A DNA stretch of 64,000 nucleotides from assembly GCA_001899315.1 (NCBI GenBank), contig MOYA01000001.1:807105-871104 (forward strand). Direction: 5' to 3'. The notes below the pieces were generated by a model, which ran no database searches, was not told the origin of the DNA, and saw only the letters and a list, made by a program, of their open reading frames with translations. A program made the position numbers and the translations under genes. This stretch comes from Candidatus Obscuribacter phosphatis (lineage in GTDB: Bacteria; Cyanobacteriota; Vampirovibrionia; Obscuribacterales; Obscuribacteraceae). Shown piece by piece: positions 20,663-26,505 of the stretch; positions within the stretch are counted from its first letter, which is position 1; each line of letters starts with the position of its first letter.

Positions 20663-22240
20663 TCAACTCAATTGTTTTTTGTCTACCTTGCCTGAAAAGG
20701 TCTTAGCAAAGACATGACTGGCTGGATAGAAAACCCATTCCATCGGTCTCAGCTCTCTCTTTAGGTTTTCTTGACAGTAAGATCGTAATTGTTCTTTTGC
20801 TTTGGCAGAGGCTTCTTTCTTTGTCTCTTCTGCCGTCAGTGCAGCGGACAATTCTTCATCACCTAAGATGATGTGAGCTTTGACTATTTGACCTAAGCGA
20901 GAATGGGCTACGCCGATTATAGCTACGTCTTTCACTAGCGGGCATTTGCGCAGGACACTTTCCACTTCGGCTGGAAAAACTTTGTTGCCGGCCACAATGA
21001 TCATTTCTTTGTTGCGACCCATGACATAGAGATAACCATCTTGCATATAACCAATGTCGCCGGTGCGGTAGCCGCCGTCTCTCATCACCGCCGCCGTCGC
21101 CTCCGCTTGACCGATATAGCCGAGCATCAAGGTCGGTCCACAAATGACAATTTCGCCTGTTTCGCCTTCACTTAAGGGCTTGTTGTTTGCTTCTTCGCCT
21201 ATGGGCAGTATTTCTATGCGACAGCTAGGCACAACTTTCCCCACTGATTGTCTTGGCCCCTCTAGGTTGACGGCGATGATCTTTGATTCAGTAGAGCCAT
21301 AACCATTATTGAGGCGCTTAGCAAATTTTTTCTCGAACTCTTCGGCTAAAGATAGGGGTAAAGGGGCGCCGCCGCAAAGCAAAACTTCGGCTTTGCTTAA
21401 GTCAATAAGCTCTTTGGGGAGGGTCAATATAGCACCATATATGGTGGGGACTCCCACTAAAAATTCCGGTTGATGCAAATTATTGGCTTTAATTATGCCT
21501 TCGACGCTCATCTCGGCGATGATCACGCAGCCATTACCTAGAAGGGCTGCCATGGTCACCTCCAACCCCAGCACATGGCTGAGTGGAACCGGCAGGACCA
21601 GTTTCTTGCCGTCGGTGAGGGCAGCCATTTCAGCCAGCTCTTTGATATTGTGCACCAGTGAATGCAGGTCGTGCAGCGCCCCTTTGGGCATGCCTGTTGT
21701 GCCCGAGGTCAAAATCAAGAAAGCCGGATCAGTAAGTTGCCTGTGATCCGTTACTTTCTCTCTTTCTTTCACCGATTGAGAGGGCACCTCATTTTCAATC
21801 GTTTCTATTGCCGTCAATGTATGTCCATTGGCAAAAGCGCTGAAATCATCTTTTAGTTGTTGAAGCACCGAGTTTGTGGAAAGGAGATGCTTGACTGCCA
21901 GTTTTTCGGCGATATTGGTCAATTCAGGCAGGGTCATGCGAAAGTCGACAGGCACAGCCAAGGCTCCCAGGCGAAAGGCGGCAAGCAAGGCGGCCACTAC
22001 TTCGGGACTATTGGGCGCTAAAATCAAGAGTTTCTCGCCGGCTTTCAGACCGCAACTTTGAAGACGGCTCTCGGCTTTATCAATTAAGGCGCGTAGGTCC
22101 CTATATGAAAGCTTTCTTTCACCGTCGGCGGTAATTTGAATGAGAGCCGGGGCATCCGGCGACGCCGCTGCCAGATCAGGCATTACCAGTTTCTGGATGA
22201 GATTAATGGTTTCCAAGTTGTTTTCTTGTGTCAGCACCAT
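20663..22240 (-). CDS. Class I adenylate-forming enzyme (acyl-CoA synthetase family)
   Basis: 525 residues. AMP-binding signature L-T-S-G-T-T-G-M-P-K-G (about residues 176-186), N-N-G-Y-G-S-T-E-S as the A5 motif, Y-R-T-G-D-I-G as A7 and the C-terminal catalytic lysine in S-G-K-V-D-K-K. It would activate a carboxylic acid as acyl-AMP and pass it to CoA or a carrier protein. An insertion rich in Glu/Ala/Lys just before the end separates two parts of the small C-terminal domain. It stands alone on the minus strand and is divergent from the RNase J-like gene. Substrate unknown, medium- or long-chain fatty acid being the most common choice. Confidence 0.85.
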   Translation of the reverse strand: MVLTQENNLETINLIQKLVMPDLAAASPDAPALIQITADGERKLSYRDLRALIDKAESRLQSCGLKAGEKLLILAPNSPEVVAALLAAFRLGALAVPVDFRMTLPELTNIAEKLAVKHLLSTNSVLQQLKDDFSAFANGHTLTAIETIENEVPSQSVKEREKVTDHRQLTDPAFLILTSGTTGMPKGALHDLHSLVHNIKELAEMAALTDGKKLVLPVPLSHVLGLEVTMAALLGNGCVIIAEMSVEGIIKANNLHQPEFLVGVPTIYGAILTLPKELIDLSKAEVLLCGGAPLPLSLAEEFEKKFAKRLNNGYGSTESKIIAVNLEGPRQSVGKVVPSCRIEILPIGEEANNKPLSEGETGEIVICGPTLMLGYIGQAEATAAVMRDGGYRTGDIGYMQDGYLYVMGRNKEMIIVAGNKVFPAEVESVLRKCPLVKDVAIIGVAHSRLGQIVKAHIILGDEELSAALTAEETKKEASAKAKEQLRSYCQENLKRELRPMEWVFYPASHVFAKTFSGKVDKKQLS

Positions 22241-22348
22241 TTCTGCCGCTCCTTACTCTAAAGTTTTAATGGCTCTATTTTTAATCTGCTCTTGATCTTA
22301 ACTTCTTGAAGATAGAATTGTTACCGGCAACCAACACTTAAGGAAGCA

Positions 22349-24076
22349 ATGGCATTCACTCCGGTTAGTTTTGAAGATTTCGACCCGGCTCACCTCTATT
22401 GCATGCCGCTTGGCGGGCAGAACGAACTGGGTCTGGTTTCTTGGGCCTTTGTTCATCAGTCGAAAATTTTGCTTGTCGATGCCGGGGCGGCTTATCCGGC
22501 CTTCGATTTGCCTGGTGTAGACCTTTTGTTGCCTAATACAGCCTTTCTAGAAGCTAATCAAGACAAGATTGTCGGGCTGGCTCTCACTAATGGGCATGAG
22601 GAGCACTTAGGTGCCTTTGCTTATTTTATGAAGCATCTTTCTATACCCCGCATAATGGGACCTCGTTTTGTCGGGCATCTGATTAGACAGGAAATTTTTG
22701 ATCTCTATGGTCAAGGGCATTTAGACCAGAGCCAATTGTCTTTCGAAGAAGTAAATGGGCAAACCCTCAAGGTTGGTCCGTTCTTGCTGGAATGGATCGC
22801 CGGCAATAACTCTATATATGATGCCTATTGTCTAAAGATAAGTACCCAGGCCGGCACCGTTCTCTATACATCCGGCTTCAAACTAGAGCAAACCCCCCTT
22901 GATGGTGTCATGCTCGATATCGGTCGTCTGGCTGCTTGCGGTGATGAAGGTGTGATGCTTCTTATCTCGTCTTCAGTTAACGTCGAGGAAGGCGGTTATT
23001 CGGCATCTGAGAAAACTGTCTTGCGCAGTATAGAAAAGATCTCGCAGAGCGCCGAAGGTCGATTGATTGTGGTGATGCCGGCCACCAATACTCATAGACT
23101 CAAGGTTTTATTTGAAGTAGCTAAGCGTACAGGGCGCAAGGTCTTTTTGCAGAGTCCGACCTTACACAAAGTGGCGGTCAGTGCCGCTATTTCCGGCTAT
23201 CTTACCTATGATCGCAATATCGAAGGCGAAGCGGACAAATTGGATACGACCGAAGATCGGCAGGTTCTTATTCTAGAGAGCAGTAAAGAAGCTGATCCTA
23301 TTGATGTGCTGCAAGCCATCAGTCGTTTCGAACATCCTACAACCAGGCTTAAAGTTGGCGATACCATCGTATTTTCTTCTGATGTGGTGCCTGGTCAAGT
23401 TCGCCGGATGGCGCATATTCTCGACGAACTCCTCGCCTTATCAGTGCCTTGCTATTACGGTAATCGGCAGGGTGTCAATGTCTCCAGATATGGTGCCAGG
23501 GAAGAACTAAAGCTGATGCTTTCCATAACCAAGCCGAGATATTTTGCGCCTGCTATGGGTGAGTCAAGGCATATAGTGCAGCACGGCAATTTAGGCGAAT
23601 TTTTCAACCTGGGTGCCGATGAGATTTTCAACTTGCAGAATGGCGATGTTCTAGAGATGAAGAACGGCTATGTCAGACCTTTTGGACGTATTGAAGCAGA
23701 GCCTGTTCTCTTTAACTGCGATCAAGGTGAGAGGGTGACTACTGCCTCGATCAAAGAAAGACAGGCTCTGTCGGTGGAAGGCTTTATGACTCTGGGCTTG
23801 ACCTTGGGGCTTGATGGTAAGTTGCTTTCTGGTCCCAATCTCAGCTGTGGTGCCTCTGGCTTTTTGTTGAGTGATGAATGGCCCGATGTGCGGCAAGAGA
23901 TAGAAATTGCTGCCCGTGCGGCTGTCACTAAAGTGGTGCAGGAGCGCATCAATGACGAACGAGATTCGGGACCTTATATGCGCTCGGCTGTGCGTGAGGC
24001 GGTGGTGAAAGTTTTGCGCAATCGTATGGGCGCCAAGACCACTGTCCAGGTTCAGATACACCAAGTGGGCAACTAA
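22349..24076 (+). CDS. RNase J-like protein with degenerate metal site (probable pseudoenzyme)
   Basis: 575 residues, collinear with RNase J: beta-lactamase fold, beta-CASP part and C-terminal domain. However, the metal ligands are changed. The H-x-H-x-D-H motif reads N81-G-H-E-E-H86; the T-H-S segment reads N-N-S (about 153-155); T-G-D-F-K reads T-S-G-F-K (about 174-178); S-G-H-A reads S-R-Y-G; and P-V-H-G-E reads P-A-M-G-E. The surrounding fold sequence is well kept, so it is not a decaying pseudogene. It may have become a structural partner or regulator of a true RNase J elsewhere. ATG start, divergent from the acyl-CoA synthetase gene. Confidence 0.85.
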   Translation: MAFTPVSFEDFDPAHLYCMPLGGQNELGLVSWAFVHQSKILLVDAGAAYPAFDLPGVDLLLPNTAFLEANQDKIVGLALTNGHEEHLGAFAYFMKHLSIPRIMGPRFVGHLIRQEIFDLYGQGHLDQSQLSFEEVNGQTLKVGPFLLEWIAGNNSIYDAYCLKISTQAGTVLYTSGFKLEQTPLDGVMLDIGRLAACGDEGVMLLISSSVNVEEGGYSASEKTVLRSIEKISQSAEGRLIVVMPATNTHRLKVLFEVAKRTGRKVFLQSPTLHKVAVSAAISGYLTYDRNIEGEADKLDTTEDRQVLILESSKEADPIDVLQAISRFEHPTTRLKVGDTIVFSSDVVPGQVRRMAHILDELLALSVPCYYGNRQGVNVSRYGAREELKLMLSITKPRYFAPAMGESRHIVQHGNLGEFFNLGADEIFNLQNGDVLEMKNGYVRPFGRIEAEPVLFNCDQGERVTTASIKERQALSVEGFMTLGLTLGLDGKLLSGPNLSCGASGFLLSDEWPDVRQEIEIAARAAVTKVVQERINDERDSGPYMRSAVREAVVKVLRNRMGAKTTVQVQIHQVGN

Positions 24077-24107: not shown

Positions 24108-24203
24108 CTATTTTTGATTCTCTAAAATTCGCTTTTTTAAATTCTCAAAAGTTCTCTATTTTTGAGTATCTAAAATTCGCTGTTTTAAATTCTCTAAAAT
24201 TCT
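24108..24203. repeat. 48-bp tandem duplication between convergent genes
   Basis: Two units of 48 bases, 24108-24155 and 24156-24203, differ at about five positions. They are AT-rich, contain TCTAAAATTCGC and TTTTAAATTCTC, and lie between the convergent RNase J-like gene and a secreted protein gene. They probably form the terminator region of one or both. Confidence 0.8.
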
Positions 24204-25024
24204 TACCAGCCGCCTTGAATCAAGATGGCATTGCTATCGTCCATGGTTAATTGCAATACTTCGCCGGCTTTTACTTTCACCGGTTCCTGCCAGTAATAGA
24301 TAAGACCCGCTACTTTATGTTCGCCGGTAACCCACCACTCGCCTTCACCTAGCTCGCATTGCGATTCGAAAGCAAAAATCTTGTTGTCTTTGGTGAGCGC
24401 TCTGAGCTTTAGCGGTACCGGTTCCAGACCGTGTTTGAGAGCTTCCATCTCTTCATCTTTATGGTTGTCCTCATAGTCTTGAACAGCCTTCATATATTTA
24501 AGCTTGCGTTTTGCTTCGATTTCATTGAGCCGCAAGATTTCGGGTTTGATGTATTTGACCATATCCTTACTAAAGGAATAGGCGCCCATCATGAGCTTGG
24601 GCGTGCTTAGTCCGGAGCGTTTGAGGGCATTACGATAGGCATACTGCCAACGCCAACCGCCTGGCGGATAAGGTTTTTCCAGTGAAACTCGGTTGGAATA
24701 ACCTGTGCCAAGAAGCATACTCTTGATCACAACATCTTTTTCTGGAAGGGGTTCTATCTGGGTGATTAGCTTGGGTGGTTTGACCATGTAGGGAAAGATG
24801 GTGAACCTAGTGCGCGGCTCTTTCATCTGCGGCACTATTACTTTGACTTTCACCTTAGCTTTCGCTTTAGGCTGGTCCTCCTCCGGCGGCAGGGCTTCCG
24901 GTGAAGCCTGCGCATTTGTTTCCGGGCTGTCGGCAGCCTTAGCACTGAGGCAAGTAACGAGCAAGAGAGACAGAAATACTAGAGTCATGCCTCTTAGTAG
25001 TTCTCTAATTTGAATACTGGTCAT
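24203..25024 (-). CDS. Exported hypothetical protein
   Basis: 273 residues with a signal sequence (hydrophobic core about residues 12-30, ending S-A-K-A-A). A Lys/Val/Pro stretch at about 50-65 is followed by an apparently globular domain with many Tyr, Trp and Lys residues. The conserved-looking parts are P-G-G-W-R-W-Q-Y-A-Y-R-N-A at about 122-134 and W-W-V-T-G-E-H-K-V near 230. I do not recognise the family. It is encoded alone, 17 bases behind the end of the HD-GYP gene on the same strand, and may share its transcript. Confidence 0.7.
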   Translation of the reverse strand: MTSIQIRELLRGMTLVFLSLLLVTCLSAKAADSPETNAQASPEALPPEEDQPKAKAKVKVKVIVPQMKEPRTRFTIFPYMVKPPKLITQIEPLPEKDVVIKSMLLGTGYSNRVSLEKPYPPGGWRWQYAYRNALKRSGLSTPKLMMGAYSFSKDMVKYIKPEILRLNEIEAKRKLKYMKAVQDYEDNHKDEEMEALKHGLEPVPLKLRALTKDNKIFAFESQCELGEGEWWVTGEHKVAGLIYYWQEPVKVKAGEVLQLTMDDSNAILIQGGW

Positions 25025-25041: not shown

Positions 25042-26505
25042 TCAGTCGAGCGCCTTATAGTTTTCAGGCAAGCCGAAATTATAGAGGCGATCGAAAGTCT
25101 CACGGGCGCCTTCCTCGCCCCGCTTGGGTTTAGAGCCTGCTACCAACTCTACCAACCTTTGCCAGCTCACATTCTTAAACACGCTCAGGTCTTCGTTGGC
25201 TTTGCGATCTCTTTCAGATTCCATCACCGAAAGAACTGCTTCGCAGGGCAGACGGTTGAACATATCGACGCAACGACTGTCGAAATGGTTTCCTTTACCC
25301 GAATCAAGTATTTCAGAAACTTTCACTATGGGCATGCGGTTGCGGTAGTGACGCACCGAGGTCAAAGCATCAAACACATCGGCAACGGCGATGATTCTCG
25401 ACAGAAAAGGAATTTCCTCGCCCTTGAGACCACGATAATAGCCCGTGCCATCAAGCTTTTCATGGTGACAGCTGGCTACATAAGGTACTGCCGCCAGGCG
25501 TTTGGTGAAGGGTAGATTGATAAGCAATTCATAAGTGATGCTGGCGTGCTTTTGTACTGTGGCATACTCTTCCGGCGACAGACGACCGTCTTTCCAGAGA
25601 ATTTGCTCTGGCACGCCGATTTTGCCATAGTCGTGCATCATGGCCGAATATCGCAGCACATCTAATTCTTGCGAAACTACATCGAGTGAATTGCCCAGCA
25701 AGAGACTGTAGTTGGTTACCCGCACCGAATGTCCAGCTGTGAGCGGATCTCTTTTATCGATTGTCTGGGCCAGTACTTCTAAAGTCTTGTCGACAAAGCG
25801 CTCGATCTCGGCATAGGCTTGTGCTTGTTCTATCAAGCCCGAGGCTACGGCAGTGAGAGCTTCGAGCCAGTCTTCGTCTTCAGAGGTGAAAGGACCGGCC
25901 AGTTTATTCAAGACCTGGAAGACACCAATCACGGCACCTTCACGGTTGCGCATCGGTACACAAAGAACGCTTCTTGTTTTATAGCCGGTTTGCTTGTCTA
26001 CGGCTGGGTCGAAGCGTTCATCTTTGTAGGCATCGGGAATATTGATGATTTTGCCGCTGCGGGCGCAATGGCTGACGATGGCAGTACTCGATAGGGGAAT
26101 GCGGATTGTGCGCACTCCGACAAGACCTTGCGCTACCTGGGTCCATAGTTCAGCTTTATCGGCATCGAGAACAAAAACCGAGCAACGGTCGCATTTGACA
26201 ATGGCTTGGGTTTCGCGCGTGATTGTCTCCAATAGAGAATCAAGCTTGCGCTCGGTGGCCATAGCCTTGACCACTCGATAAAGACCGCTCAAGGGTCTGA
26301 GGCGGTCCAGCTCTTCTTGGATGCGCAAAGACTTGATTTCGCGCTCGATAAGATTGATTTCGCGTTTGTTCAGATCTTCTTCAAATTGCTTGAGGTCGAT
26401 AAGGGCCCGCCCTTGCGGCTTGGCGTCGCAATCGCCGGAGCCGCCATGGCTATGTCCATGACTGTGTCCACTCTGGGATTGTCCACCCGGGGTCCCTTTC
26501 ACCAT
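25042..26505 (-). CDS. GAF and HD-GYP domain protein (probable cyclic-di-GMP phosphodiesterase)
   Basis: 487 residues. The first 25 are Gly/His/Ser rich (H-S-H-G-H-S-H-G), a possible metal-binding tail. A GAF domain follows at about 75-220 with C-D-R-C-S-V-F-V-L-D and Y-K-T-R-S-V-L-C-V-P. The HD-GYP domain occupies about 240-430: H-S-V-R-V, M-M-H-D-Y-G-K-I-G-V-P, and H-H-E-K-L-D-G-T-G-Y-Y where the usual GYP reads G-Y-Y. The metal residues are in place, so hydrolysis of c-di-GMP is expected, controlled by the GAF ligand. No transmembrane part. Cytoplasmic signalling protein; target unknown. Confidence 0.87.
   Translation of the reverse strand: MVKGTPGGQSQSGHSHGHSHGGSGDCDAKPQGRALIDLKQFEEDLNKREINLIEREIKSLRIQEELDRLRPLSGLYRVVKAMATERKLDSLLETITRETQAIVKCDRCSVFVLDADKAELWTQVAQGLVGVRTIRIPLSSTAIVSHCARSGKIINIPDAYKDERFDPAVDKQTGYKTRSVLCVPMRNREGAVIGVFQVLNKLAGPFTSEDEDWLEALTAVASGLIEQAQAYAEIERFVDKTLEVLAQTIDKRDPLTAGHSVRVTNYSLLLGNSLDVVSQELDVLRYSAMMHDYGKIGVPEQILWKDGRLSPEEYATVQKHASITYELLINLPFTKRLAAVPYVASCHHEKLDGTGYYRGLKGEEIPFLSRIIAVADVFDALTSVRHYRNRMPIVKVSEILDSGKGNHFDSRCVDMFNRLPCEAVLSVMESERDRKANEDLSVFKNVSWQRLVELVAGSKPKRGEEGARETFDRLYNFGLPENYKALD

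Follow-up and report, generated by a model that had tools for sequence, protein, structure and literature searches.

What would a bacterium that already has an intact RNase J gain from a second copy whose active site is largely gone? The question is raised by a gene of Candidatus Obscuribacter phosphatis that lies at 22349-24076 on the forward strand of the window, the whole stretch of 64,000 nucleotides analysed here. These limits are exactly those of an ATG-started open reading frame of 575 aa, and what reads as a Shine-Dalgarno-like AAGGAAG (22340-22346, +) lies 2 bases 5' of the ATG. The product has all three domains of an RNase J, namely the MBL, beta-CASP and C-terminal domains: Pfam RNase_J_b_CASP and RNase_J_C were matched, together with a Lactamase_B match below its own cut-off, and homology to the NCBIfam model RNase_J1_RnjA runs along the whole length (E = 3.6e-95). 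Against TIGR00649, the family of active RNase J, the protein scores 300 bits, under the curated cut-off of 400 bits, a value that some degenerate orthologues of family f7 surpass. An antisense frame at 23651-24064 (-) was discarded as a shadow of the main open reading frame.

The metal-binding residues were compared using the numbering of S. epidermidis and B. subtilis RNase J1, in which the seven ligands are H74, H76, D78, H79, H144, D166 and H390. The former HxHxDH motif now reads N81-G-H83-E-E85-H86 (22589-22606, +), with H74 and D78 replaced, the latter by glutamate, and H76 and H79 kept. The former ligand H144 is Asn154 (22808-22810, +), the former bridging ligand D166 is Gly176 (22874-22876, +) and the former ligand H390 is Met403 (23555-23557, +). 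Five of the seven ligands are therefore replaced, and the protein does not have the two-metal site of an active RNase J. An earlier note on this DNA had described the gene as being without any metal ligand, which is overstated because His83 and His86 remain, with Glu85 in the place of Asp; the five replacements stand. The altered motifs that it listed were read correctly (NGHEEH, NNS, SGFK, SRYG and AMGE), NNS, SGFK and AMGE standing at canonical THS, GDFK and HGE, but SRYG is no metal-ligand motif: S379-R-Y381-G (23483-23494, +) is the former motif C (SGHA), part of the 5'-phosphate pocket. DSTN is also changed, to SSVN. Both the motif A Asp and the motif C His are gone in the genus to which the window belongs and are retained by most relatives of the same family, the motif C His being kept by most relatives outside the genus.

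Residues that hold RNA are changed as well. In S. coelicolor RNase J, R267 is among the RNA-gripping residues and sandwiches RNA bases (PMC4652760); its counterpart here is Pro270 (23156-23158, +), a position where most orthologues have Glu or Asp. Of the other gripping residues, F241 has become P244, the Asn of PGN has become Gln and F52 has become Tyr. Across the degenerate copies, H74, H144, D166 and the PGN Asn are absent from every one and Arg267 from most, and between 0 and 3 of the 7 ligands are retained, as compared to 7/7 in all 95 canonical sequences. The substitutions at the lost ligands vary between families, which is what an early end to catalysis would lead one to expect. The lost-ligand pattern recurs in about 70 orthologues, and the changes of the window type recur in two further sequences that are 98% (L003) and 69% (L004) identical; assembly error, which the earlier note had named as a ground for giving up its reading, is ruled out because the changes recur in separate genomes. 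From these residues we infer that the degenerate RNase J is catalytically inactive.

The loss of catalytic residues has left the fold in place. An AlphaFold2 model, built from an input alignment of 68 sequences, has a mean pLDDT of 91 and superposes on 3bk2 with a Z of 50.6 over 543 residues at 27% identity, the C-terminal domain included; against solved RNase J structures Z is 45-50 over nearly the full chain. By Foldseek E-value the top match is 9a5v, a model of B. subtilis J1-J2, and by Z the RNase J/J1 chains are best; CPSF73 and INTS11 also resemble the model in structure, with a Z of about 30. By both Pfam and AlphaFold2, the degenerate protein has the architecture and fold of RNase J, and the statement that fold and length are preserved holds for a full-length RNase J of 575 aa (pLDDT 91, Z about 50). 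That selection still acts was likewise borne out: dN/dS between the window gene and its nearest relative (L003) is 0.021 at a dS of 0.60, as compared to 0.015 for the canonical gene in the same two genomes, and it ranges from 0.010 to 0.092 over all degenerate pairs with a computable dS. Taken together, the retained fold of the model, the lost catalytic residues and the purifying selection strongly support the status of this degenerate RNase J as a pseudoenzyme.

We looked for an active counterpart in the same genome (5.49 Mb), as the earlier note had proposed, and found one canonical RNase J (L002) of 599 aa, 34% identical to the window protein. Every motif in it is intact (HGHEDH, THS, GDFK, SGHA and HGE), all seven ligands are kept, and it scores 595 bits against TIGR00649; the absence of a second RNase J, on which that note would have been abandoned, is thus not the case here. 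The canonical gene lies behind dapB-dapA (L002, 492-3219; dapB and dapA named from translations). A dapA-RNase J linkage also occurs among cyanobacteria and, in Bacillus, with rnjB; on that basis the arrangement here may be ancient. The degenerate and canonical genes share no operon. A search of genome contigs matched only a near-identical relative. The genome also has RNase E/G, and RNase Y was not found in it.

At the family f1 loci, the degenerate gene stands alone, with a divergent AMP-ligase or other gene on one side and a convergent uncharacterised gene on the other, and no conserved operon was found around it. In the window, the divergent flanking gene is an AMP-binding acyl-CoA-synthetase-like ligase (20663-22240, -). 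The convergent gene (24203-25024, -) encodes a 273-aa protein for which Pfam gave no match, and it directly follows the pseudo-RNase J gene in 44 f1 loci, one of them a near-duplicate record. Beyond it lies a flanking gene for a GAF + HD-domain protein (25042-26505, -). The ligase and GAF/HD genes accompany the pseudo-RNase J gene in many family members, with no RNA-related function evident.

The pairing of a degenerate with a canonical copy extends across the class. Among 289 Vampirovibrionia-type genomes, 78 have a true RNase J, with at least two matches in 66 of the 78; about 210 genomes, members of other families, have neither copy. In families f1, f2, f4, f6 and f7, inspection of motifs revealed that genomes pair a single degenerate copy with a single canonical one. 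Genomes with a single match are mostly drafts of at most 88% completeness, the exceptions being two genomes at 93%, one with the degenerate copy only (G019) and one with the degenerate copy and a canonical fragment (G032), and no canonical-only genome was found among class genomes at least 90% complete. The degenerate copy thus co-occurs near-perfectly with the canonical RNase J. Other Cyanobacteriota that have RNase J, in a phylum-wide sample, carry one copy each, with an extra short fragment in a single genome (G297), and all 35 of the 35 sequences examined from them are canonical. The sampled genomes without RNase J all keep RNase E/G, joined in f5 and f12 by RNase Y. Families f3, f5, f8 and f12 are without RNase J, the sampled genomes of f3 and f8 carrying RNase E/G only. 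Two proteins from such genomes (L153 and L154, from G287 and G188, families f5/f12) were rejected as degenerate RNase J, being other MBL proteins with SHAHPDH motifs; their scores against the RNase J model are low (75-81 bits), and they are possibly another MBL/beta-CASP nuclease.

Trees of both copies, another check that the earlier note had called for, were computed with the catalytic columns removed, on sets of 96 and 43 sequences. The degenerate copies form one deep clade (SH-aLRT 100 with 96 sequences; 100/100 with 43), the canonical copies of the class form a separate clade, and Firmicutes J1 and J2 together form a distinct one (100/99). In this comparison Firmicutes J2 was represented by the retrieved S. 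epidermidis sequence and by a provisional B. subtilis one. A joint clade of the degenerate copies with Firmicutes RNase J2 was rejected with the 43 sequences (log-likelihood 40 lower, AU p = 1.7e-5), and the duplication is therefore independent and old. The nearest relatives of the degenerate clade are the Cyanobacteriia and the canonical Vampirovibrionia-type copy; the best tree places it just outside these two, a placement that long branches may have caused, and a class-specific clade of degenerate and canonical copies is compatible with the data (p = 0.31). On these sequences, the simplest reading would be a single duplication, distinct from the Firmicutes one, that took place when the class arose or close to that point.

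Which parts of the degenerate protein have been held constant may hint at what it does. Twenty-four columns are invariant over all degenerate copies, mostly glycines, prolines and core residues common to canonical RNase J; D58, R352, D359, R407 and W511 are among those that are invariant in the degenerate and variable in the canonical copies, and some fixed residues are unique to the degenerate clade, such as W511, D359 and Y173. Asp359 (23423-23425, +) is present in 70/70 pseudo copies, its position being Asn in 57/60 canonical partners, and corresponds to Asp353 of the M. tuberculosis enzyme, a dimer-interface residue; Arg407 (23567-23569, +), also in 70/70, corresponds to Arg401, the interface partner of Asp353, and D58 to the dimer-interface D61 of D. 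radiodurans (PMC10119312). These positions were selected in hindsight from published work, and further interface residues described there (K357 and E424 of M. tuberculosis, D456 of D. radiodurans) are not conserved in the degenerate copy, so that the match is suggestive only. As the protomer interface of RNase J adjoins the RNA exit cleft (PMC10119312), a dead subunit at this interface could influence a live one.

We consider it fairly likely that the dead RNase J arose by duplication near the base of the class and has been kept as a non-catalytic subunit of a mixed oligomer with the canonical copy. By this account, the degenerate copy would have split off when the Vampirovibrionia-type class arose, or nearly so, and would ever since have been the obligate companion of the cell's own canonical RNase J. 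The MBL, beta-CASP and C-terminal surfaces of the dead subunit would assemble with the live one and, because both protomers jointly shape the RNA cleft in known structures, the dead subunit may tune the live one in its activity, its stability, its balance of exo- and endonucleolytic action or its docking to other decay factors. The heteromer of degenerate and canonical RNase J proposed here is putative, the invariant interface-like residues (D58, D359 and R407) being only an indirect sign of it; the joint loss of both copies could instead mark a general loss of RNase J-dependent decay and not a physical complex.

Other roles for the degenerate copy were weighed against this mixed oligomer. It might be a stand-alone scaffold, homo-oligomeric and with a new job such as docking RNase E/G, a helicase or PNPase, that makes no contact with the canonical RNase J. 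Such a protein would be equally served by the conserved interface-like residues and the C-terminal domain, would fit a genome with RNase E/G and no RNase Y, and could account for the fixed residues unique to the clade. The families without canonical RNase J are, however, also without the degenerate copy and yet keep RNase E/G, which ties the degenerate copy to RNase J and not to RNase E; we hold the scaffold to be unlikely. We are more doubtful still of an RNA-binding competitor or decoy, which would bind 5'-monophosphate ends without cutting and either protect RNAs or present them to RNase J. Many relatives do keep the motif A Asp and the motif C Ser/His (38/45 and 40/44 in f1; 10/10 and 11/11 in f7), and the change of Phe52 to Tyr is conservative in f1. 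However, the RNA-gripping residues are lost and charge-reversed, with Arg267 turned to Glu or Asp in most copies and both Phe241 and the PGN Asn lost, the degenerate protein is the more acidic of the two copies (median net charge in f1 of -17 versus -9 for canonical RNase J), and from the window gene the motif A Asp and motif C His have also gone. The same losses weaken the earlier suggestion that the dead copy is an RNA-binding partner of an active one.

Unusual catalysis, in which a single metal is held by His83, Glu85, His86 and acids nearby, or in which the protein acts free of metal, appears very improbable. N-x-H-x-E-H is near-universal in f1, and S. epidermidis RNase J2 is active with an altered site and a single Mn ion (PMC7864078), but the positions that hold this metal include H74, H144 and D166 (as Glu), the very three lost in every degenerate copy, which argues against a one-metal enzyme; in addition, orthologues of f2, f4 and f6 have at least one of His76, Asp78 and His79 changed to Lys, Tyr, Arg, Phe or others. 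A functionless gene, whether a decaying relic or an assembly artefact, is barely conceivable: the variation of ligands between families would be expected once catalysis is lost, but dN/dS is 0.01-0.09 over all measurable pairs, full length is kept in families that diverged long ago, and neither internal nor inactivating stops were found in the degenerate gene of any matched genome.

In the open-access literature we found no paper linking RNase J with Melainabacteria, ribonucleases with Obscuribacter, or RNA degradation with Vampirovibrionia, and this analysis gives a first view of the RNA decay genes of a little-studied Vampirovibrionia-type class, in which several families have lost RNase J altogether. 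The canonical cyanobacterial RNase J, a 5'-3' exo/endoribonuclease, shares the fold of the degenerate protein and differs from it by its intact catalytic motifs and its occurrence as one gene per genome. The pair described here is apparently the second live/dead RNase J pair to have evolved independently in bacteria, and is class-wide and more degenerate than Firmicutes J2.

The closest experimental model for a degenerate/canonical pair would be, by analogy, J1-J2 of S. aureus, where J1 supplies the activity and J2, though needed as a protein, can do without its active site (PMC3937233). Like Firmicutes RNase J2 (RnjB of B. subtilis, S. aureus and S. epidermidis), the degenerate copy is a second paralogue beside a canonical one, with a weakened HxHxDH motif and a full-length fold; unlike it, the copy is of independent origin, with no descent from the Firmicutes J1/J2 duplication, and its host has RNase E/G and is without RNase Y. 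S. epidermidis J2 has a single-metal site formed by H74, H76, the His at the D78 position, H144 and E166, which binds one Mn and gives residual activity (PMC7864078). Firmicutes J2 keeps H74, H76, H144 and D/E166, while the degenerate copies are without H74, H144 and D166, and their pair would avoid the residual J2 activity that confused the Firmicutes case.

A catalytically dead MBL/beta-CASP paralogue beside an active one is also seen in INTS9 (with INTS11) and CPSF100 (with CPSF73), INTS9 having lost three of four ligands in its HxHxDH-type motif (PMC7980224); these proteins differ in belonging to another MBL/beta-CASP family, that of 3'-end endonucleases, at about 14% identity and with extra domains. 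We see an even chance that the non-photosynthetic Cyanobacteriota, on a path separate from that of Firmicutes, evolved an RNase J holoenzyme in which a live subunit is obligatorily joined by a fully dead one. Such an enzyme would be a bacterial counterpart of INTS11-INTS9 and CPSF73-CPSF100, its dead subunit binding neither metal nor RNA and serving purely in assembly or allosteric control. If the same solution arose once in Firmicutes and once here, as well as among eukaryotic MBL/beta-CASP nucleases, it would become possible to test why RNase J requires, or puts up with, a dead partner.
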